Shown here in pieces: positions 1 to 52,718 of a stretch of 64,000 nt of DNA. The stretch covers positions 1,674,001-1,738,000 of the forward strand of contig NZ_CP117811.1 in NCBI RefSeq assembly GCF_028728065.1. Direction: 5' to 3'. Under the pieces are notes generated by a model. That model was not told where the DNA came from. It was given only the letters and a program-made list of their open reading frames with translations, and searched no databases. This stretch comes from Lentisphaera profundi. GTDB lineage: Bacteria; Verrucomicrobiota; Lentisphaeria; Lentisphaerales; Lentisphaeraceae. A program made the translations under genes and the position numbers. The stretch's first letter is position 1, and each line of letters starts with the position of its first letter.

Positions 1-1827
1 AATCAAGCTAGCCAAGCGGCCTATTTTGGTTGGCCCTATTTCGTGGGAGACCAAGCTTATAATGATCTTGATTTTTCTACTGCTAAGAGTGGTCAAAGTT
101 TTTCAAAGAAACTTATCAATGATTCTCCCAATAACACTGGTTTAAGTTCATTGCCAAAAGTTAATTTTCCCATTCTTCACTACCCATATAAAAAAATGGA
201 GTCTCATCCTGATTTAGGCAATGGTAGCCGCAACGCTATGGCGGGACCAGTCTATCATCAAGAAGGGCGAATAAATAGCTTTCCCGCGTACTTTGATGAC
301 ACCCTATTTTTCTATGATTGGTGTCGCTCCAAAATTCTACTTGTTAAATTTAACGAGCACAAAAAAATAAAATCATTAACTCCCTTTATGGAGTCACATA
401 AATTCATTCATCCCATCGATATCCAACAAGGTCCAAAAGGAGATCTCTATGTATTAACTTACGGTTCAGGCTGGTGGAATAATTCCGATGGAACACTTCA
501 AAAAATATCCTTTGAAGGATTTAATCGTCGTCCCACCCTTGTCATGCAAGCAGATAAAAATGATGGTAAGATCCCATTAAGAATACATTTCTCTAGCGAA
601 GGAACCATGGATAAAGATGGCGATAGCTTGAGCTATGCTTGGAGTTTTGGCGACGGTCGCATATCCAAGCAAAAGAACCCACAAATCACCTATACAAAAA
701 CAGGCCTTTACCAAGCTTCCTTAACCGTTAGCGATACTGCCGGACGCAGTTCGACTCAAAGCATGAAGATAATTGCTGGCAATGAGCGTCCAAAAATTCA
801 CCTAGATTTCAAATCGAAGCCCAGTGCTTTTATTTGGGGTGAAACTTTTGAGTATACCCTGACCGCAAGCGATGCCGAAGATGGAGTCATTGATCCGGCT
901 TTGGTAGATGTCACGGCTGAATATAGACCCGATACTTCCATTCCAAAAAAAGCTTCTCAGTCAGATAATACCGACCCACGTTTAAAGGGAATGAACGCCT
1001 TACATCAAGGCACTAAACTCATTGAAAAAAATAATTGTCTCGCCTGTCACCAATCCCAAGCGAAATCCATTGGCCCCTCTTATGCGGACATCGCAAAAAA
1101 ATATGTGGATAATGCAAAAAATCGCGAAACACTACTCAAAAAACTCAAACTGGGAGGCAATGGAGTTTGGGGTCACATGCCCATGCCCCCTCAAAGCCAT
1201 ATTGCTGATATTCAACTCAAATCAATGATTTCTGCTATCATGGCTATGGGTAAACAATCTAAACTCATCAGTAAGGGTGAAAATGGTAAAATCCGCTTCA
1301 TGGCTAAGCCTTCCGAGGCAAAAAATTCTCACGGAATTTACGTTATAAGGGCAAGCTATCGTGACCAAGGTGCCAATGGTCTCCCTGCTCTAGTCGGTGA
1401 ATCTAAAGCTATCATTCTTGAATCAACGATTGTTGTCGAAGGAGGAAAAGCTATTTTAAATACGGATAGAGCTCTTATTCACGGCATCAACGCCCGAAAA
1501 GAAGGTAGTAGTAACATTGGCTTTTATCGCAATATCGACACATCAGTTACTTGGAATACATACATAAAAGATCCTGGGGTATACGAAGTTTATATTTACC
1601 AAGCTTGTGCTGCCGATAAAGCTGGCAGTAAATTTGAGCTACACCTAGGAAGCCAACAACTCAAAGGTACGATTGTCGCCACAAGTGACTGGACTGATTT
1701 TACTCCCGTAAAACTCGGTTCAGTAAACTTCCCAAATCGTGGCTCACAAAGAGTTCACTTTAAACCAAAGCATATCCCTCATGGCGACTTGGGCAACATC
1801 AAGGGAATTATTCTCAAAAAGATGTAA
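1..1827 (+). CDS. PKD / cytochrome c / CBM6-like secreted protein, 5' truncated by window edge
   Basis: The frame is open from base 1, so only the C-terminal 608 codons are present; the GTG at 43 is not a convincing start. The first part (GWPYFVGD onward) resembles the end of a PQQ/sorbosone-dehydrogenase-like propeller, as in large planctomycete and lentisphaeral cytochrome proteins. A PKD domain follows (about residues 185-260, with DGDSLSYAWSFGDG), then a second Ig-like stretch. A class I cytochrome c domain has heme motif CLACH starting at residue 346 and a likely Met ligand in HMPMPP. The last ~150 residues look like a CBM6-type beta-sandwich. A role in periplasmic sugar oxidation linked to electron transfer is inference. 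Confidence 0.75.
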   Translation, partial: NQASQAAYFGWPYFVGDQAYNDLDFSTAKSGQSFSKKLINDSPNNTGLSSLPKVNFPILHYPYKKMESHPDLGNGSRNAMAGPVYHQEGRINSFPAYFDDTLFFYDWCRSKILLVKFNEHKKIKSLTPFMESHKFIHPIDIQQGPKGDLYVLTYGSGWWNNSDGTLQKISFEGFNRRPTLVMQADKNDGKIPLRIHFSSEGTMDKDGDSLSYAWSFGDGRISKQKNPQITYTKTGLYQASLTVSDTAGRSSTQSMKIIAGNERPKIHLDFKSKPSAFIWGETFEYTLTASDAEDGVIDPALVDVTAEYRPDTSIPKKASQSDNTDPRLKGMNALHQGTKLIEKNNCLACHQSQAKSIGPSYADIAKKYVDNAKNRETLLKKLKLGGNGVWGHMPMPPQSHIADIQLKSMISAIMAMGKQSKLISKGENGKIRFMAKPSEAKNSHGIYVIRASYRDQGANGLPALVGESKAIILESTIVVEGGKAILNTDRALIHGINARKEGSSNIGFYRNIDTSVTWNTYIKDPGVYEVYIYQACAADKAGSKFELHLGSQQLKGTIVATSDWTDFTPVKLGSVNFPNRGSQRVHFKPKHIPHGDLGNIKGIILKKM

Positions 1828-1851
1828 ATCGCGATGTAATAAAAGTTTACA

Positions 1852-2018
1852 CGATTACCCGTTACAAGGAGCAAAGCCCCTAATCGCCTGGTCAAGGGTC
1901 TTGCCAGACAGGCGGATAAAAAGCATTTGCCCATACGGCAGTATCTTGCTGGGGGAGATCGAGCGGGACAGCGTCCCTATCGAACGGGTCGCATCATGCC
2001 CTCTATTCTGGGTAATCG
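1852..2018. repeat. Structured dispersed repeat, family A, copy 1
   Basis: The ends form an inverted repeat (CGATTACCC ... GGGTAATCG). Inside are the family blocks TAATCGCCTGGTCAAGG, a GGGACAGCGTCCC hairpin and GCATCATGCCCT. The central hairpin is longer here than in the other copies. It starts 25 bases after the stop of the preceding gene. Related copies lie near 17837, 25402 and 52372. Confidence 0.8.
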
Positions 2019-2028
2019 TATATATTTT

Positions 2029-16588: not shown

Positions 16589-17698
16589 TTATAGCGTTTC
16601 TCGTGAAATAAACGATGGTGGCATCAACGTTACACACCTAGGTATTTCAGGATTTTCAATACGCTCAAATAATCTTTTAGCAATGATTCGTCCCATCGCT
16701 TCTTTATCAATTGATACGGTACTCAAAGCTGGATGAACTAAGGGCGCCCAATTGATATCATCGAAGCCCACGACCGAAACCTTATCAATAAAGTTATCAC
16801 CTAATGATTCTTTCAAGAAACGGCAAGCACCCAAGGCCATCTCATCATTCATACAAAAAACACCATCAGGCATATCTGATGCAAGCTTAGACATGGCTTC
16901 ATAACCACCGTTAATCTGAAAATCTGAGTACTCAACTGGCACAGTATCTACTCCAATACCAAAAGCATTTAATGCCGCTTTAACTCCATCGAGGCGATCA
17001 TGAGTTGCCGACTGTTCTCTATCACCAGCAATAATGGCAATTTTCTTACAACCTTTATCAATTAGTGCCTTCAAAGCAATAAAACCACCTTCACGATTAT
17101 CGGCTTGTACTACATCCGCTGCTAATCCATGAAAATGATAATCCACGACAATCGAGGGTGGGCCATCTTTGATAAGTTGCTCCAAGAATGACTGAGGAAC
17201 TGGACCCATATAAATAACACCAGATAAATTAGCTCCATGAATCATTTTCAAGATTTCTTTACGCTCGCGACTCCCCGGTGCAGGCAATAAAATAAAGTTG
17301 GCATCATGACGACCAATTTCTGAGCGGATCCCCTCTAAAACTGACATGTGATAGGGCCCCGTCGATCCAGGAATAAGTACATTAGAAATGAGACCTATAT
17401 TGAGGATATCAGAAGATTGTGCAGTCTCTGATAGTTTTGTTGCTCCGCTAAATTCGGAAACAAAAGTGCCCTGCGCTGGAACTGAATAGAGTAATCCTGC
17501 ATCTGCCAATTCTTGAAGAGAGCGTCGTACAGTGATTTTATTAAGGTTATAGCGTACTGATAAATCATCCATCGATGGCAAGCGTTCACCAGGCAAGTAT
17601 TTACCATCTTCTATTTCTTTGCGAATGATATCGGCAAACTGCCTATATAAAAATGTTTTCTTACCACGTCCACGGGCTAATTCACTATCTTTACTCAT
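16589..17698 (-). CDS. GntR-type regulator with LacI-like sugar-binding domain
   Basis: A 369-residue regulator. Residues about 17-82 form a GntR winged helix (LPGERLPSMDDLSVRYNLNKITVRRSLQELADAGLL). Residues about 95-369 are a periplasmic-binding-protein-like effector domain of the LacI/GalR group (NIGLISNVLIP ... VVGFDDINWAPLVHPALSTV). This AraR-like architecture usually represses sugar genes until a sugar is bound. Its own upstream region holds two AGTATACT palindromes, and the same core precedes the adjoining symporter and several glycosidase genes, which supports a local regulon including autoregulation. Confidence 0.92.
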   Translation of the reverse strand: MSKDSELARGRGKKTFLYRQFADIIRKEIEDGKYLPGERLPSMDDLSVRYNLNKITVRRSLQELADAGLLYSVPAQGTFVSEFSGATKLSETAQSSDILNIGLISNVLIPGSTGPYHMSVLEGIRSEIGRHDANFILLPAPGSRERKEILKMIHGANLSGVIYMGPVPQSFLEQLIKDGPPSIVVDYHFHGLAADVVQADNREGGFIALKALIDKGCKKIAIIAGDREQSATHDRLDGVKAALNAFGIGVDTVPVEYSDFQINGGYEAMSKLASDMPDGVFCMNDEMALGACRFLKESLGDNFIDKVSVVGFDDINWAPLVHPALSTVSIDKEAMGRIIAKRLFERIENPEIPRCVTLMPPSFISRETL

Positions 17699-17836: not shown

Positions 17837-17972
17837 CACGCTTATCCATATAAAAGGGGCAACTCCCCTTAATCGCCTGGTCAAGGATTGGCAAATCCTT
17901 GCTGGGGGAGCTCGAGGGGGACAGCGTCCCTCTCGTATGCAAAGCATCATACCCTTTCTCTCGTTAATCGTG
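17837..17972. repeat. Structured dispersed repeat, family A, copy 2
   Basis: Hairpins AAGGGG...CCCCTT, AAGGATTGGCAAATCCTT, GAGGGGGACAGCGTCCCTCTC and ATGCAAAGCAT lie in series between imperfectly paired ends (CACG ... CGTG). It sits 38 bases past the 3' end of the symporter gene. Confidence 0.8.
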
Positions 17973-18009: not shown

Positions 18010-19491
18010 TTACGATGCTTTTAAGGCTCGGCGCTTTTCTAACTGCGCACGAATATCATGAGCCTTCTGCTCTGTGATTTTATAAGACCAGATTGCCCAA
18101 ATAGCTATAATTGTGGCCACTAAGGGAATTGCGACATCAAAGATACGCAATAAAAACAAAGCCCGATCACTTTGATTGGCTCCCAATTCTACGTCGAATC
18201 CACTGATATTTAAAAGCATGCCTGAAAGGGCAAGTGCTAAGGCTAAACCCAGTTTGATCACCCACCAAAAAATAGAGCCAAACATTCCTTCTCGGCGTTC
18301 ATAGGATTGCAATTCATCTAAATCACAGACATCTGCTACCATTGAATTAATCAGGGTGAATAGTGAGCCCATACCAAAAGCTACTAAGGGGGCGGGTAAA
18401 AACATTAACCAAGGCATGTTTTTTGAATAACAAAACCATCTTAGAATATAACCCACAACAGAACAGCTCATGCAGATAAAAAACGCTTTTCTCTTGCCTA
18501 CCTTAGTCGCCATCCATGTCGCAAAAAGAATCACGATATAGGTAGATACCGTGGTGATCACACCGATCATCCCCATGTAATAGGCTCCTTGTTTCATATC
18601 CCCTGCAAATAGGTAATAAGTCGCAATATAGGTTTGGAAACTCATTATCAGCATGAAGCTGTTGAAAATTAAAAAAGCAGCCATGCACAAGAGTAAAAAA
18701 GGGCGAAACTTCAGTGTCGAAATAAAACCTTTAAAAAATCCGCTAAGGACTTTTAAAAGACTCGTTTTTTCTTTCGAGCATGGCTCGATAAATTCCACCT
18801 TCCTCTCTTTTAAAAAAATAGCTGGTATCAGACCCAAAACAATTGTTATTCCACCAATGATTAAGCCCAAAACAAAGGCGGCATCAGCCATGGTATCAAA
18901 CCATTGATCATTTTTCATGAAAGAGAAAAACCATGGAGTGGCAAAATAAACTAAATTACCTGCTACACTCGTAAATCCCATCAATCGCGTACGTTCGTGA
19001 TAATCCGGTGTCATTTCATAACCGAGCGCTACTAAGGGAGTCGCAAAAATAGTATAGGCCCCATAAAAAATAACCGAGCCAATTAAAAAGTACCACCATA
19101 CATAATCCAAGCCCTGATCCACAGGAAGACGCCACAAGAGCATAAATAATAAGCCCGTGGCGATTGAACCGAAAAATATAAAGGGACGTCGGCGTCCCCA
19201 TTTCGAACTAAAGTTATCACTTATATAACCCATCAAGGGATCGGTAAAGGCATCGCACAAACGCGGTAAGGCCGCCAATAAACCTGCTTTAAAGGGATCC
19301 ATACCCAAGCCCAAATTAAAGACAATCATCATCGCCCCGATGGCTGTACCTAGTAAATTATTTACAATGATACCACTACTGTAAGCACATTTATTGGCAA
19401 AGCTAATTCTATCTTCGTCTTTGGTATTGTAATGAACTGACTCAAGAACTTCATCTATGCCGCTTTCACTCTTCTCGCTCACAACTTCCAT
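18010..19491 (-). CDS. GPH-family sugar:cation symporter (MFS)
   Basis: A 493-residue membrane protein with about 11-12 hydrophobic helices. The loop motif LPRLCDAFTDPLMGYISDNFSSKWGRRRPFIF is diagnostic of glycoside-pentoside-hexuronide:cation symporters (MelB-like). It should import a mono- or disaccharide with Na+ or H+. It lies beside the GntR/LacI regulator, and its promoter region shares an 18-base string with that of GH3, so it is the likely importer feeding the GH3/GH1 enzymes. Confidence 0.92.
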   Translation of the reverse strand: MEVVSEKSESGIDEVLESVHYNTKDEDRISFANKCAYSSGIIVNNLLGTAIGAMMIVFNLGLGMDPFKAGLLAALPRLCDAFTDPLMGYISDNFSSKWGRRRPFIFFGSIATGLLFMLLWRLPVDQGLDYVWWYFLIGSVIFYGAYTIFATPLVALGYEMTPDYHERTRLMGFTSVAGNLVYFATPWFFSFMKNDQWFDTMADAAFVLGLIIGGITIVLGLIPAIFLKERKVEFIEPCSKEKTSLLKVLSGFFKGFISTLKFRPFLLLCMAAFLIFNSFMLIMSFQTYIATYYLFAGDMKQGAYYMGMIGVITTVSTYIVILFATWMATKVGKRKAFFICMSCSVVGYILRWFCYSKNMPWLMFLPAPLVAFGMGSLFTLINSMVADVCDLDELQSYERREGMFGSIFWWVIKLGLALALALSGMLLNISGFDVELGANQSDRALFLLRIFDVAIPLVATIIAIWAIWSYKITEQKAHDIRAQLEKRRALKAS

Positions 19492-20594: not shown

Positions 20595-22108
20595 ATGAAG
20601 TTCATTTTCCTTTCTTTCTTCATCTTTTTAAATCTTTTTTCCGCAGAAAAACCCAATATCGTTTTTATCCTCGTTGATGATATGGGCTATTCAGATCTCG
20701 GATGTTATGGAAGTGAAATCTCTACACCGAATATTGATTCACTAGCTGAAAATGGTTTGCGTTTCACTCAAATGTATAATACCTCTAAGTGCTTCCCTTC
20801 GCGTGCTTGTTTACTCACCGGTGTCTACGCTCAACAATCGGGCATGGATAAAAAACATGCTGCCATGCTAAATGCGGTCACTCTAGGTGAAGTTCTCAAA
20901 ACGGCTGGCTATCGCACATTGGCTTCAGGCAAACATCATGGTACCGAAAATCTTTTTGAACGTGGCTTTGATCATTACTACGGTTTACGCGATGGAGCTT
21001 CAAACATGTGGAACCCCGGCAATAAACGAGACGGTGAAGCCTCTCCAGGAAATAAGGGTCTAAATCGCTATTGGTGTGATGATGAAAAAACTTATGCGCC
21101 CTACACTCCCGAAGACAAAAACTTTCATGCGACAGATGCTTTTACCCATAAAGCCCTAGAATGGCTCGATGAAAAAGAACTTGATTCTCAACCATTCTTT
21201 CTCTACCTTTCTTACACTGCGCCCCACTACCCCCTTCACGCTTGGCCAGAAGATATCGCTAAACAGAAAGGCAAATATGATCGAGGTTATGAAGTCATTC
21301 AGAATGAACGTTATCAACGCATGGTGAAAATGGGCGTCATTGATCCCCATAAGAGTCCTCTGGCAAAATGGCCGGGGAAAAATTGGACTCAAAACAAAGG
21401 TGTGGAACTTGAAAAAGAAAAACGCCGCATGGAAATTTATGCCGCCATGATTGAGCAGCTTGATCACAATGTGGGCAAAGTCATTTCCAAACTTAAAGCT
21501 TTAGCTAAGTACAAAAATACTCTCATCATGTTTGCTTCAGATAACGGTGCCTGGTCAGGCCGTAGCGGTGCTAAAACTCAATCCACTAAGCTCGAAGACT
21601 TCGGAACTGTCGCAAGTTATGAGACCGTAGGCAAGTCCTGGGCGACAGTTCAAAATACTCCCTTACGCAATTGGAAACACTATTCCCACGAAGGGGGTAT
21701 TCGCACTCCCTTTATCGTTCACTGGCCGGGAAAAATATCTTCCCCCGGAACTTTCAATCGCGAGCCTAGTCATTTTATTGATATCATGGCCACTTATGTT
21801 GATCTAACTCAAGCTCAATACCCTTCCAATATCACCCCTATGCAAGGCATCAGTCTTTTACCCGCCCTTCAAAATAAAAGCCTTCAACGAACTCAGCCCT
21901 TGTTTTGGCAATGGCTAAGAGGTGGTGGTGTACGAGATCAAAACTGGAAAGCCGTTTACTGGAGTAATCAGTGGGAACTCTTTGATATGTCTAAAGATCA
22001 AAATGAATCCAATAACCTCGCATCTCAATATCCAGAAAAGCTCGAAGCCATGAAAAAATCTTATCATGCTTGGTACAAAGAAGCTAAGCAAAAATGAAAA
22101 AAACGTCC
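20452..22108 (+). repeat. Tandem duplication unit 1 (leader plus sulfatase)
   Basis: The unit begins at TTTATTAG (20452-20459) and recurs 1657 bp later starting at 22109. The two leaders and genes are nearly identical in long blocks. Confidence 0.85.
20595..22097 (+). CDS. Secreted arylsulfatase-family sulfatase, copy 1
   Basis: A 500-residue protein with a signal peptide (about residues 1-17). The alkaline-phosphatase-fold sulfatase motifs are present: metal site VDDMGYSDLGCYG (Asp28/29), Cys66 in CFPSR for conversion to formylglycine, and a second metal site FASDNGAWSG. It should hydrolyse sulfate esters of a polysaccharide after export. The formylglycine-generating enzyme is not in this window. 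It differs from copy 2 mainly near residues 140-165, around CFPSR and in the last ~110 residues. Confidence 0.93.
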   Translation: MKFIFLSFFIFLNLFSAEKPNIVFILVDDMGYSDLGCYGSEISTPNIDSLAENGLRFTQMYNTSKCFPSRACLLTGVYAQQSGMDKKHAAMLNAVTLGEVLKTAGYRTLASGKHHGTENLFERGFDHYYGLRDGASNMWNPGNKRDGEASPGNKGLNRYWCDDEKTYAPYTPEDKNFHATDAFTHKALEWLDEKELDSQPFFLYLSYTAPHYPLHAWPEDIAKQKGKYDRGYEVIQNERYQRMVKMGVIDPHKSPLAKWPGKNWTQNKGVELEKEKRRMEIYAAMIEQLDHNVGKVISKLKALAKYKNTLIMFASDNGAWSGRSGAKTQSTKLEDFGTVASYETVGKSWATVQNTPLRNWKHYSHEGGIRTPFIVHWPGKISSPGTFNREPSHFIDIMATYVDLTQAQYPSNITPMQGISLLPALQNKSLQRTQPLFWQWLRGGGVRDQNWKAVYWSNQWELFDMSKDQNESNNLASQYPEKLEAMKKSYHAWYKEAKQK

Positions 22109-22251: not shown

Positions 22252-23754
22252 ATGAAGTTCATTTTCCTTTCTTTCTTCATCTTTTTAAATCTTTTTTCCG
22301 CAGAAAAACCCAACATCGTTTTTATCCTCGTTGATGATATGGGCTATTCAGATCTCGGATGTTATGGAAGTGAAATCTCTACACCGAATATTGATTCACT
22401 AGCTCAAAATGGATTGCGCTATACGCAAATGTATAATACATCTAAGTGCTTCCCTTCGCGTGCTTGTTTACTCACCGGTGTCTACGCTCAACAATCTGGC
22501 ATGGATAAAAAACATGCTGCCATGCTAAATGCGGTCACTCTAGGTGAAGTTCTCAAAACGGCTGGCTATCGTACTCTTGCTGCCGGCAAACATCATGGTA
22601 CTGAAAATCTTTACGAACGAGGCTTTGATCATTACTATGGCCTCAGAGATGGTGCCTCAAATATGTGGAATCCTGGGAAGCAACGTTCAGGCGAAGCTAC
22701 ACCCGGTAATAAGGGTCGCACTCGTTATTGGTGTGATGACGAAAAAACTATCCCCAACTACACTCCCGAAGATCGCAATTTCCATGTAACAGATGCTTTT
22801 ACCCATAAAGCCTTAGAATGGCTCGATGAAAAAGAACTTGATTCTCAACCATTCTTTCTCTACCTTTCTTACACTGCACCTCATTACCCTCTTCATGCTT
22901 GGCCAGAAGATATCGCTAAACAGAAAGGCAAATATGATCGAGGCTACGAAGTCATTCAGAATGAACGTTATAATCGTATGGTGGAAATGGGAATTATTGA
23001 TCCCCATAAGAGTCCTCTGGCAAAATGGCCAGGGAAAAATTGGACTCAAAACAAAGGCATTGAACTCGAAAAAGAAAAACGTCGCATGGAAATTTATGCC
23101 GCCATGATTGAGCAGCTTGATCACAATGTGGGCAAAGTCATTTCCAAACTTAAAGCTTTAGGAAAGTACAAAAATACTCTCATCATGTTTGCTTCAGATA
23201 ACGGTGCCTGCTCAGAAGGTAGCGGTGCTAAAACTCAATCCACTAAGCTCGAAGACTTCGGAACTGTCGCAAGTTATGAGACCGTAGGCAAGTCCTGGGC
23301 GTCGGTTCAAAATACTCCTCTTCGCAATTGGAAAAACTATTCCCACGAAGGGGGCATTCGCACTCCTTTTATCGTTCACTGGCCGGGAAAAATATCTTCA
23401 CCCGGAACTTTCAATCGTGAGCCTGTACACTTCATCGATATCATGAGTACTTATGTCGAACTGACAGCAGCGACTTATCCAACAGATGTCACTCCCATGC
23501 AGGGAACGAGTCTACTTCCCACATTTAAAGGAAAAGAAATAAAGCGGAGCAAGTCACTCTTCTGGCAATGGCAAAGAGGCGGTGCCATCCGTGACAAAAA
23601 CTGGAAAGCTGTTTTCTGGAATAAGAATTGGGAACTCTTTGATATGTCTAAAGATCAAAATGAGGCTCATGACCTTGCATCTCAATATCCAGAAAAGCTC
23701 CAAGCCATGAAAAAATCTTATCATGCTTGGTACAAAGAAGCGAAGCAAAAATGA
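22252..23754 (+). CDS. Secreted arylsulfatase-family sulfatase, copy 2
   Basis: A 500-residue near-duplicate of the preceding sulfatase with the same signal peptide, VDDMGYSD metal site, Cys66 in CFPSR and FASDNGACSE second metal site. Changes cluster near residues 140-165 (GKQRSGEATPGNKGRTRYW) and 415-470, surface or substrate-pocket regions, so specificity may have shifted. Its stop overlaps the start of the next gene (ATGA), so it is co-translated with the alpha/beta hydrolase. This copy keeps the ancestral link to the downstream genes. Confidence 0.93.
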   Translation: MKFIFLSFFIFLNLFSAEKPNIVFILVDDMGYSDLGCYGSEISTPNIDSLAQNGLRYTQMYNTSKCFPSRACLLTGVYAQQSGMDKKHAAMLNAVTLGEVLKTAGYRTLAAGKHHGTENLYERGFDHYYGLRDGASNMWNPGKQRSGEATPGNKGRTRYWCDDEKTIPNYTPEDRNFHVTDAFTHKALEWLDEKELDSQPFFLYLSYTAPHYPLHAWPEDIAKQKGKYDRGYEVIQNERYNRMVEMGIIDPHKSPLAKWPGKNWTQNKGIELEKEKRRMEIYAAMIEQLDHNVGKVISKLKALGKYKNTLIMFASDNGACSEGSGAKTQSTKLEDFGTVASYETVGKSWASVQNTPLRNWKNYSHEGGIRTPFIVHWPGKISSPGTFNREPVHFIDIMSTYVELTAATYPTDVTPMQGTSLLPTFKGKEIKRSKSLFWQWQRGGAIRDKNWKAVFWNKNWELFDMSKDQNEAHDLASQYPEKLQAMKKSYHAWYKEAKQK

Positions 23755-24800: not shown

Positions 24801-25364
24801 ATGAAAAAATTATTTCTCACTCTCTTCACTCTATGCTCATCTGCATTCGCACTAGAAAATGCGGGCCAAGAATGGCAAGAAAAAACGAAGAAATCTTATT
24901 GGTCGACTCAAGACAAAGTCATCATCGGTGAAAATGCTGATAAGAAAAAATCGGTTCTCTGGACCTCTAAAAAATTCTCTGATTACGAACTGGTGGTCAA
25001 ATTCAAAACTGAGTCAAAAGACTATGACTCAGGCGTCTTTCTCCGCGGCCCGAGCCATCAGGTCCAAATTGGTGTTTCGCGCTCACTAAAAAAAGACCTC
25101 ACTGCCTGTATATATGCGCCCGTGGACAAAAAAGGAAAGTATCCTGCAGCTAGTGATCAAGTCAAAGAACTTCACAAACTCGGTGAATGGAACGAAATGA
25201 AAATCACTGTGAAAGGCAAAAATATCCAAGTCACCCTCAATGGAACTCAGACAGTCAATTATGATGCCGTAAAACTAAAAGAAAGTGGCCCCATTGGCCT
25301 TCAGCTTCATCCTGGCGTTCACCAAAAAATAGAGTTCGAAATCCTCTCATTAAAAGAACTATAA
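24801..25364 (+). CDS. Secreted DUF1080 (3-keto-disaccharide hydrolase-like) protein
   Basis: A 187-residue protein with a signal peptide (about residues 1-18). The rest is a jelly-roll of the DUF1080/concanavalin type, seen in the order SDYELVVKFKTE, DSGVFLRG, WNEMKITVKGKNIQVTLNG and GPIGLQLHPG. Members of this family act on or bind sugars; some are 3-keto-glycoside hydrolases. It lies 18 bases after the hydrolase, closing the sulfatase-hydrolase-DUF1080 transcription unit. Confidence 0.85.
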   Translation: MKKLFLTLFTLCSSAFALENAGQEWQEKTKKSYWSTQDKVIIGENADKKKSVLWTSKKFSDYELVVKFKTESKDYDSGVFLRGPSHQVQIGVSRSLKKDLTACIYAPVDKKGKYPAASDQVKELHKLGEWNEMKITVKGKNIQVTLNGTQTVNYDAVKLKESGPIGLQLHPGVHQKIEFEILSLKEL

Positions 25365-25401: not shown

Positions 25402-25534
25402 CACGATTACCCATAAAGCGGGGCACAGCCCCTAATCGCCTGGTCAAGGAATGGCAATTCCTTGCAGGGGGTGTTTGAGGGGGACAGAGTCACCCTCATA
25501 TGCGAAGCATCATGCCCTTTATTCTGCTTAATCG
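25402..25534. repeat. Structured dispersed repeat, family A, copy 3
   Basis: CACGATTACCC begins it. Hairpins GGGGCACAGCCCC, AAGGAATGGCAATTCCTT and GAGGGGGACAGAGTCACCCTC follow, then GCATCATGCCCT and TTAATCGC. Compared with copy 2, stem bases change on both sides (GGATT/AATCC versus GGAAT/ATTCC), which keeps the hairpin. It lies 38 bases past a gene's stop. Confidence 0.8.
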
Positions 25535-25624
25535 CATAAAAATTTATCTCCAACTGGATCGCGTAGCCCCCTGTTACGCACAAAACCTCCTCTAACACAC
25601 TTAAACGCACAACAAAAGATCCTT

Positions 25625-27115: not shown

Positions 27116-27172
27116 AAAAGTGATCAAATTATTCTTGCTCTATTAGTCGGACAAGGAATTAGATTTACTTTT

Positions 27173-27913
27173 TAGTGCTGAAAGTACGCATTAACTTAGC
27201 CTAGTTCGTCAGAGCTAGGAAAAACGAGTACATGAAGAATGAGTGAGTTCTGTAGGAACGCATTAAAGCTCTAATCCATGCTTACAGCATTCATTTTAGT
27301 GCTGAAAGTACGCATTAACTTAGCCTAGTTCGTCAGCGCTAGGGAAAACGAGTACATGAAGAATGAGTGAGTTCTGTAGGAACGTATTAAAGCTCTAACA
27401 CATGCTTACAGCATTCATTTTAGTGCTGAAAGTACGCATTAACTTAGCCTAGTTCGTCAGAGCTAGGAAAACGAGTACATGAAGAATGAGTGAGTTCTGT
27501 AGGAACGCATTAAAGCTCTAATCCATGCTTACAGCATTCATTTTAGTGCTGAAAGTACGCATTAACTTAGCCTAGTTCGTCAGAGCTAGGAAAAACGAGT
27601 ACATGAAGAATGCGTGAGTTCTGTAGGAACGCATTAAAACTCTAAACCACGCTTACAGCATTCATTTTAGTGCTGAAAGTACGCATTAACTTAGCCTAGT
27701 TCGTCAGAGCTAGGGAAAACGAGTACATGAAGAACGAGTGAGTTCTGTAGGAACGCATTAAAGCTCTAATCCATGCTTACAGCATTCATTTTAGTGCTGA
27801 AAGTACGCATTAACTTAGCCTAGTTCGTCAGAGCTAGGGAAAACGAGTACATGAAGAATGAGTGAGTTCTGTAGGAACGCATTAAAGCTCTAATCCATGC
27901 TTACAGCATTCAT
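27173..27913. repeat. Tandem array of six ~124-bp repeats (family B)
   Basis: Units start at 27173, 27297, 27421, 27544, 27668 and 27792 (periods 124, 124, 123, 124, 124). Each has CCTAGTTC-GTCA-GAGCTAGG (8-bp stem, one G-U), GTTCTGTAGGAAC, and ends that pair imperfectly (TGCTGAAAG ... CTTACAGCA). Units differ at only a few positions. There are no variable spacers, so this is not a CRISPR array. Confidence 0.92.
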
Positions 27914-40990: not shown

Positions 40991-41022
40991 GTGCTGCCAC
41001 ACGGGCGGTGCTGCCACACGCG
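40991..41022. repeat. Short direct repeat GTGCTGCCACACG, two copies
   Basis: GTGCTGCCACACG occurs twice 20 bases apart, just after the nuclease gene and just before the 109-bp repeats. A near-palindrome CCTCACTCCGGTGGGGAGG at 40971-40989 may serve as a terminator. Confidence 0.5.
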
Positions 41023-41380
41023 ATTTCACTTGTCTGCGATTTCACTTGTCTGAGACGCGAAAATAACGATTTCACTTGTCTGAGACGCGAAAATAAAAAC
41101 TATATTTAACTGATAATCAAGTCTTTATACAAAAAGAATAAGCGCCAATTCAGCTGATACATTTGCTTAATAAAAAGATTTCACTTGTCTGAGACGCGAA
41201 AATAAAAACTATATTTAACTGATAATCAAGTCTTTACACAAAAAGAATAAGAGCCAATTCAGCTGATACATTTGCCTAACAAAAACTATATTTAACTTAT
41301 AATCAAGTCTTTACACAAAAAAAACAAGAGCCAATTCAGCTGATACATTTGCCTAACAAAAAAGATTTCACTTGTCTGAG
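41023..41380. repeat. Cluster of ~109-bp repeats (family C)
   Basis: The head GATTTCACTTGTCTGAGACGCG begins at 41039, 41068 and 41177, with head fragments at 41023 and 41364. Two full units (41068, 41177; period 109) and one headless unit (about 41280-41363) carry the body AAAACTATATTTAACTGATAATC ... CAGCTGATACATTTGC. A further full copy is at 43988. Confidence 0.88.
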
Positions 41381-52263: not shown

Positions 52264-52718
52264 GTCATCCCATCGCGTATTAACCTAACAAGAGTTCTTC
52301 CATTAAACGGAGTTTGGGGCGAAGCCCCGATAAATTAAAATATATAAATGCCTCCGGCGGATAAAAATATATGGGGCTCCGCACCAGTCGCCGGGTCAAC
52401 GGTTGGCAAGTCCTTGGTGGGAGTGTGAGGGACTCGTCCCTCATTTAGTCAAACTTGGGGCTCCGCCCCAGTATAAATACCTCCGGTGGCCGAGAAGCCC
52501 TCGGTGCCACACTAACAAACGTAGCAACACGCTTAAATATCCTTAAGTCCCCTTCCACTGAGTCGGTGCCACGATAAATGCCTCCGGCGGACGGAGAGCC
52601 TCCGCAGGTGGACTAGCTTCGCAAAGACTCCGCTAAAAGACCTTAAGTTTCCTATCTTTAAAGGGAGTTAACTCCCTTTCCAACAAAGAAAAATCATCCT
52701 TCGAAAATTGAACTTAAA
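52264..52718. repeat. GC-rich palindromic repeat region
   Basis: ATAAATGCCTCCGGCGG occurs at 52344, 52473 (one changed pair) and 52574. GGGGC-hairpins lie at 52316-52328 (GGGGCGAAGCCCC) and 52457-52469 (GGGGCTCCGCCCC). TCGGTGCCAC occurs twice. A partial family A repeat is at 52372-52445. The region is markedly GC-richer than its neighbours and has no gene. Confidence 0.75.
52372..52445. repeat. Structured dispersed repeat, family A, copy 4 (partial, divergent)
   Basis: It keeps the order GGGGC hairpin, TCGCCGGGTCAACGG, a GGCAAGTCC loop, TTGGTGGGAG and GAGGGACTCGTCCCTC. The terminal arms and the GCATCATGCCCT block are missing. Confidence 0.65.

Follow-up and report, generated by a model that had tools for sequence, protein, structure and literature searches.

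The hairpin-rich repeat that recurs along this window (the whole stretch of Lentisphaera DNA analysed here, 64,000 nucleotides long) is very probably a non-coding MITE, moved in trans by an IS1595-family transposase and carrying a folded core that is kept in those lineages that spread. Its identity as a MITE is strongly supported, since it has inverted ends, 8-bp target duplications and a resident transposase gene with matching ends, and is absent from the orthologous alaS site of related genomes; every property of a MITE that could be tested was found in it. An earlier note on this DNA had offered three identities for the repeat, namely a REP-like element, a MITE-like element or a 3′ RNA element affecting transcript ends, and it is the second that was borne out.

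The full element measures ~135 bp, is multicopy and lacks coding capacity. It runs from a left end CACGATTACCCA through four hairpins to a right end TGGGTAATCGTG, these ends forming 12-bp terminal inverted repeats. In the consensus, hairpin 1 reads GGGGCAAAGCCCC, hairpin 2 CAAGGnnn GGCA nnnCCTTG and hairpin 3 CGAGGGGGAC AGC GTCCCTCTCG, with hairpin 4 being ATGCGAAGCAT in most copies; a long form of ~170 bp carries an additional segment in the tip of hairpin 2. The four window copies with shared hairpins that had been reported earlier turned out to be three full-length elements, each within 2 bp of its reported place, and one fragment of the core that lacks the ends. Copy 2 (17837..17972, + strand, 136 bp; covariance model E 3e-30) has its left inverted end at 17837..17848 (+; CACGCTTATCCA, family consensus CACGATTACCCA), its right inverted end at 17961..17972 (+; TCGTTAATCGTG, family consensus TGGGTAATCGTG) and its folded core at 17874..17948 (+), which comprises hairpin 2 with the GGCA loop, hairpin 3 as CGAGGGGGAC AGC GTCCCTCTCG and hairpin 4 as ATGC AAA GCAT. 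Copy 3 (25402..25536, +, 135 bp; covariance model E 1e-33) lies within a target duplication, TAAAACTT/TAAAAATT, that is identical at 7/8 positions. Copy 1 (1850..2020, +; covariance model E 7e-25), with ends CACGATTACCCG / TGGGTAATCGTA, belongs to the long form and reaches 171 bp because its hairpin 2 bears a segment of ~45 additional bp at the tip (approximately 1898..1944, +; GTCTTGCCAGACAGGCGGATAAAAAGCATTTGCCCATACGGCAGTAT). The same segment is present in copies L036, L110, L111, L118 and others and is inverted in copy L168, so both orientations occur among copies. Neither copy 1 nor copy 2 has a clean duplication: the flanking 8-mers of copy 1 are identical at 4/8 positions, leaving the duplication unclear, and the duplication of copy 2 is eroded to 4/8. 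Copy 4 (52373..52447, +; E 0.004) is a degenerate core fragment without inverted ends that matches model positions 19-99 only, and is a marginal relative. Around it, at 52310-52620, lie short palindromic modules of other kinds, of the GGGGCTCCGCCCC and CCTCCGGCGG types, and some of these are found again at other places in the genome.

Beyond the window, the host genome (5.46 Mb in two contigs, genus Lentisphaera) gave 41 matches by blastn and 90 in the covariance-model search that the earlier note had recommended, with 24 and 60 further matches in the two congeners and 0 in three genomes of other genera of the same family. A 17-mer motif allowing up to 3 mismatches matched 3 times where 0.09 matches were expected, which is not chance. 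When a degenerate core pattern was run over 84,980 species genomes, repeated matches were found in L. marina, and outside Lentisphaera the scan returned three single matches, about the chance level; viral contigs scanned with the core pattern gave 0 matches. A literature search found no description of such an element in Lentisphaera. Rfam covariance models likewise gave no match, either over the whole window at the gathering score or at the four loci at E values up to 1, and a known Rfam RNA was rejected as the identity of the repeat. The same genome does hold another structured dispersed repeat, Acido-Lenti-1 RNA (Rfam RF01687), whose sequence is unrelated to the MITE: one match at 2030-2075 lies 10 bp from MITE copy 1, another is at 2169-2215, and a 124-bp unit repeated in tandem at 27170-27913 contains one in each of its six copies. 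Other duplications in the window include two adjacent sulfatase genes (20595-22097 and 22252-23754) whose proteins are 89% identical, a tandem duplication, and a set of nested tandem repeats at 41020-41362 with units of 16, 30, 109 and 77 bp.

Evidence for mobility comes from the flanks. Among the 32 copies with both ends recognisable, 24 are bordered by 8-mers identical at 7-8 of 8 positions, compared with 1.0% when the flanks of different copies were cross-paired as a control; the target duplication is AT-rich and of a constant length of 8 bp. Searching the genome with the end sequence revealed five sites at which two inverted ends lie ~1,039 bp apart, and these bound an IS of 1,039 bp with one transposase ORF of 316 aa. 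This transposase contains the domains PF12762 (DDE_Tnp_IS1595; 1.2e-29) and PF12760 (zinc-ribbon; 2.5e-13), which places the IS in the IS1595 family, among the ISXO2-like members. The IS1595 family is known for an 8-bp duplication and for zinc-ribbon and DDE_Tnp_IS1595 domains (PMC8101967). The IS is present in all three Lentisphaera genomes. Its ends in the five host-genome copies, CACGATTAACCA, match those of the MITE at 11/12 bases, a single mismatch in 12 bp, and in L. marina both of them are CACGATTACCCA, the same as in the MITE at 12/12. Each of the seven IS copies examined is flanked by an 8-bp duplication, and their target sites, mostly YA-8 bp-TR, are close to the target profile of the MITE. 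Judging from ends, duplications and target, the mover of the MITE is likely the co-resident IS1595-family transposase, acting in trans. Unlike the IS, the MITE has no gene, and when the two were aligned nothing lined up beyond the 12-bp ends; a derivation of its interior from the IS was therefore rejected, the shared sequence being the ends only.

The same ends and duplications bear on the proposal that the family is of the REP type and owes its spread to a RAYT/Y1 tyrosine transposase that works on single-stranded hairpins. The REP repeats that go with RAYT transposases carry GTAG/CGTC tags (PMC3733652), and our family resembles them as a set of intergenic palindromic repeats, sometimes grouped, in a genome with Y1 transposases; its hairpins have a conserved loop, and some copies and arrays consist of the core without inverted ends. 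However, the search for a REP-associated tyrosine transposase, also suggested earlier, led away from this reading: there are 17 Y1-transposase matches in the host genome, yet by their listed coordinates no copy lies within 2 kb of any of them, the nearest being about 2.1 kb away, and in the copies that were read neither end carries a GTAG/CGTC tag. Copies that bear ends have 12-bp inverted ends with 8-bp duplications, which tyrosine transposases are not known to make. For these copies the REP reading is already largely refuted, and we regard it as very improbable altogether.

Comparison with related genomes adds to the case for insertion. At the alaS locus, the MITE is absent from the orthologous site in both congeners; the alaS flank in the host genome also holds a duplicated terminator hairpin, which means that this is not a clean empty site. 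Locus L005 was considered as a second empty site, and no clear orthologous locus spanning the insertion was found for it.

Where the copies sit is far from random, random placement having been named beforehand as the outcome that would speak against a link to genes. To assess placement, genes were called by a simple codon-based method that had been trained on 464 kb from the host genome, and the element and one duplication were removed. On this basis, a gene 3′ end is found within 100 bp for 35 of 46 sites, the corresponding share among AT-rich intergenic positions being 22.8% (p = 3e-14), and divergent intergenic regions are under-used (6/46 vs 34.8%, p = 0.002); an earlier tally over all copies gave the same picture. 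The window copies had been described as standing just after genes, and by position all four do. Copy 1 starts 22 bp past the stop of ORF 43-1827 (+) and copy 3 lies 37 bp past that of ORF 24801-25364 (+), but copy 2 runs antisense to its 3′-end neighbour, ORF 18010-19491 (-), whose 3′ end is 37 bp away; the start of ORF 16589-17698 (-) is at a distance of 138 bp from this copy.

Such placement would suit a host-adapted 3′ untranslated RNA element, either a terminator or a structure for mRNA stability, on which selection acts site by site on behalf of the adjacent gene, and so would the strong covariation and the G-U character of the group-level wobbles described below, which fits an RNA of the strand shown. 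Against this stand the orientations: in tandem gene pairs the element is sense in 17 cases and antisense in 11, a bias that is not significant (p = 0.34), which leaves an obligate 3′ RNA element of the sense strand without support, and the fixed orientation to the transcript expected of a cis-acting 3′ RNA element was not found. Pairing, moreover, is preserved in stem changes private to single copies at a rate near the neutral one, and the element is missing from the tested orthologous locus, alaS, in both congeners. The earlier proposal of a 3′ RNA element thus fits as far as placement goes, with the wobbles hinting at an RNA fold, and falters on orientation; as a full explanation we hold it to be improbable. 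The IS offers a further comparison, as none of its 4 intergenic copies with assignable neighbours lies within 100 bp of a 3′ end. Because the IS copies do not share the 3′-end placement of the MITE, this contrast favours selective survival over a choice of target, with the proviso that the IS copies are few and younger-looking.

We then come to the fold itself. Across 94 distinct core copies from three species, standard pairs occupy 93.3% of cells compared with 86.3% after shuffling (0/500 shuffles as high), and 18/25 stem pairs show two-sided changes, whereas a lack of compensatory changes in a larger alignment had been put forward as the result that would count against a structured element. 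The covariation score of 0.255 exceeds both the shuffled value of 0.127 and the slid-partner controls (at most 0.092), part of the excess over the slid versions being expected given that the fold had been worked out on sequences of this very family; compensatory changes exceed chance, as would be expected of a structured RNA. The double change GGATT/AATCC versus GGAAT/ATTCC, first noticed between copies 2 and 3, is real and recurs genome-wide as several inner-stem types of hairpin 2 (ATT/AAT, AAT/ATT, AAA/TTT, ACT/AGT and GCC/GGT), over which the GGCA loop stays nearly constant while the stems vary. Both strands fold well. Group-level wobble cells comprise 120 G-U against 55 A-C, concentrated in four pairs, and this G-U excess suggests an RNA fold of the strand shown, the number of independent events being few.

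When changes are separated by how widely they are shared, a sharp difference appears. Those common to at least 10 copies keep pairing in 17/20 cases, and those private to one copy do so in 6/28 stem cases, where the neutral expectation is 15%; the difference between private and group changes has p = 2e-5, an optimistic figure in that the two sides of each pair are counted separately. Since group changes keep pairing and private ones break the stems at near the neutral rate, our reading is that the fold is maintained in spreading lineages and not copy by copy. Could the paired changes instead be a by-product of hairpin-templated mutation (quasi-palindrome correction), with no selection on the fold? 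The perfect inverted arms at hairpin 2 and its several interchangeable stem types are what such a process might leave behind, but the GGCA loop remains constant while the stems vary, shared wobbles are mostly G-U rather than A-C, and 22 of the 28 private changes are uncorrected mismatches. As private changes stay uncorrected, templated mutation was rejected as the main cause of the paired changes, and we give it little chance as an account of the covariation. An inversion of the hairpin tip as the source of the ATT/AAT flip was also rejected, for the loop would then read TGCC, yet it stays GGCA.

The history of the core is not wholly that of the MITE, because there are end-less copies with sharp core boundaries as well as tandem arrays. 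In 64 of the 143 model matches, inverted ends were judged absent or unclear. Some core copies begin at (C/T)GCC and finish near GCATC/GCACC in unrelated flanks, tandem core arrays occur in three species, and two species have a core copy conserved downstream of one and the same gene. The arrays without MITE ends include one with a period of about 111 in L. marina and others in the host genome and the second congener; places with such arrays are C2:1109559-1109912 of L. marina and loci L124, L129 and L187. At locus L071, a core copy at 1466-1599 (the same place as L076) is flanked by two similar direct repeats of ~60 bp. These boundaries, arrays and the conserved copy raise the prospect that hairpins 2-4 are a repeat or RNA unit in their own right, one that was captured by IS1595-type ends and has a second means of spread. 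Many end-less copies, however, retain hairpin 1 and remnants of the ends and look like decayed MITEs, and neither duplications nor ends of its own have been established for core-only copies. We judge this reading unlikely, if still one to take seriously; its fullest version, in which the ~75-nt core (hairpins 2-4) would be a Lentisphaera-only RNA or hairpin unit with its own spread and arrays, captured into an IS1595-driven MITE that disperses it to gene 3′ ends, is somewhat more doubtful again.

Returning to the IS1595-driven MITE, how might such an element come to lie where it does? The transposase of the resident ISXO2-like IS would recognise the shared 12-bp ends, CACGATTA(C/A)CCA, and insertion of the element would take place at AT-rich targets of the approximate form YA-8 bp-TR, with 8 bp duplicated. 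Copies landing in promoters or genes would be lost, and the old copies that persist would mainly be those just past the 3′ end of a gene, the position at which they are least harmful; we infer this loss and persistence from where the copies sit and from how the IS differs in that respect. Pairing in the core would be preserved in lineages that are still spreading, and single inserted copies would decay with little or no regard to it. Perhaps hairpins at the end of a transcript make an insertion harmless or even mildly useful, and this in either orientation, given that both strands fold well. That the fold serves the spread of the element, and does so above all by making a 3′ untranslated insertion tolerable, is the least certain step, which we put forward tentatively and at somewhat less than even confidence; alternatively, the fold may have a direct role in transposition.

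Amongst the closest known systems is the IS1595 family itself, with its ISXO2-like DDE transposases, with which the MITE has in common matching 12-bp ends, the 8-bp duplication and a similar target, and from which it departs in having no gene and an interior without similarity beyond the ends. The likeness to REP/RAYT systems stops at the missing terminal tag, the missing adjacent Y1 gene, and the presence of inverted ends and 8-bp duplications. Structured bacterial MITEs are short and intergenic, with robust hairpins, lie next to genes and can be moved by a transposase that recognises their ends (PMC3733652). Compared by description alone, our element has these general traits in common with bcr1 (Bacillus cereus), NEMIS/Correia (Neisseria), RUP (Streptococcus), ERIC and Nezha, and differs from them in that its core is also found without ends and in arrays. 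They also differ from it in their ends, duplication length, sequence and host phylum.

To conclude, the element is a MITE with an IS1595-family partner that resembles, by description, structured MITEs such as bcr1 or NEMIS, and its end-less core might be something more. It provides a clear case within the little-studied Lentisphaerota, in which the sequence reveals the partner transposase as well as the ends, the target and the folded interior. It also separates compensatory changes kept in spreading lineages from selection acting on each inserted copy, two things that are easily confused; and because lineage-level changes can be told apart from copy-level selection in this way, the role of a MITE's fold becomes testable.
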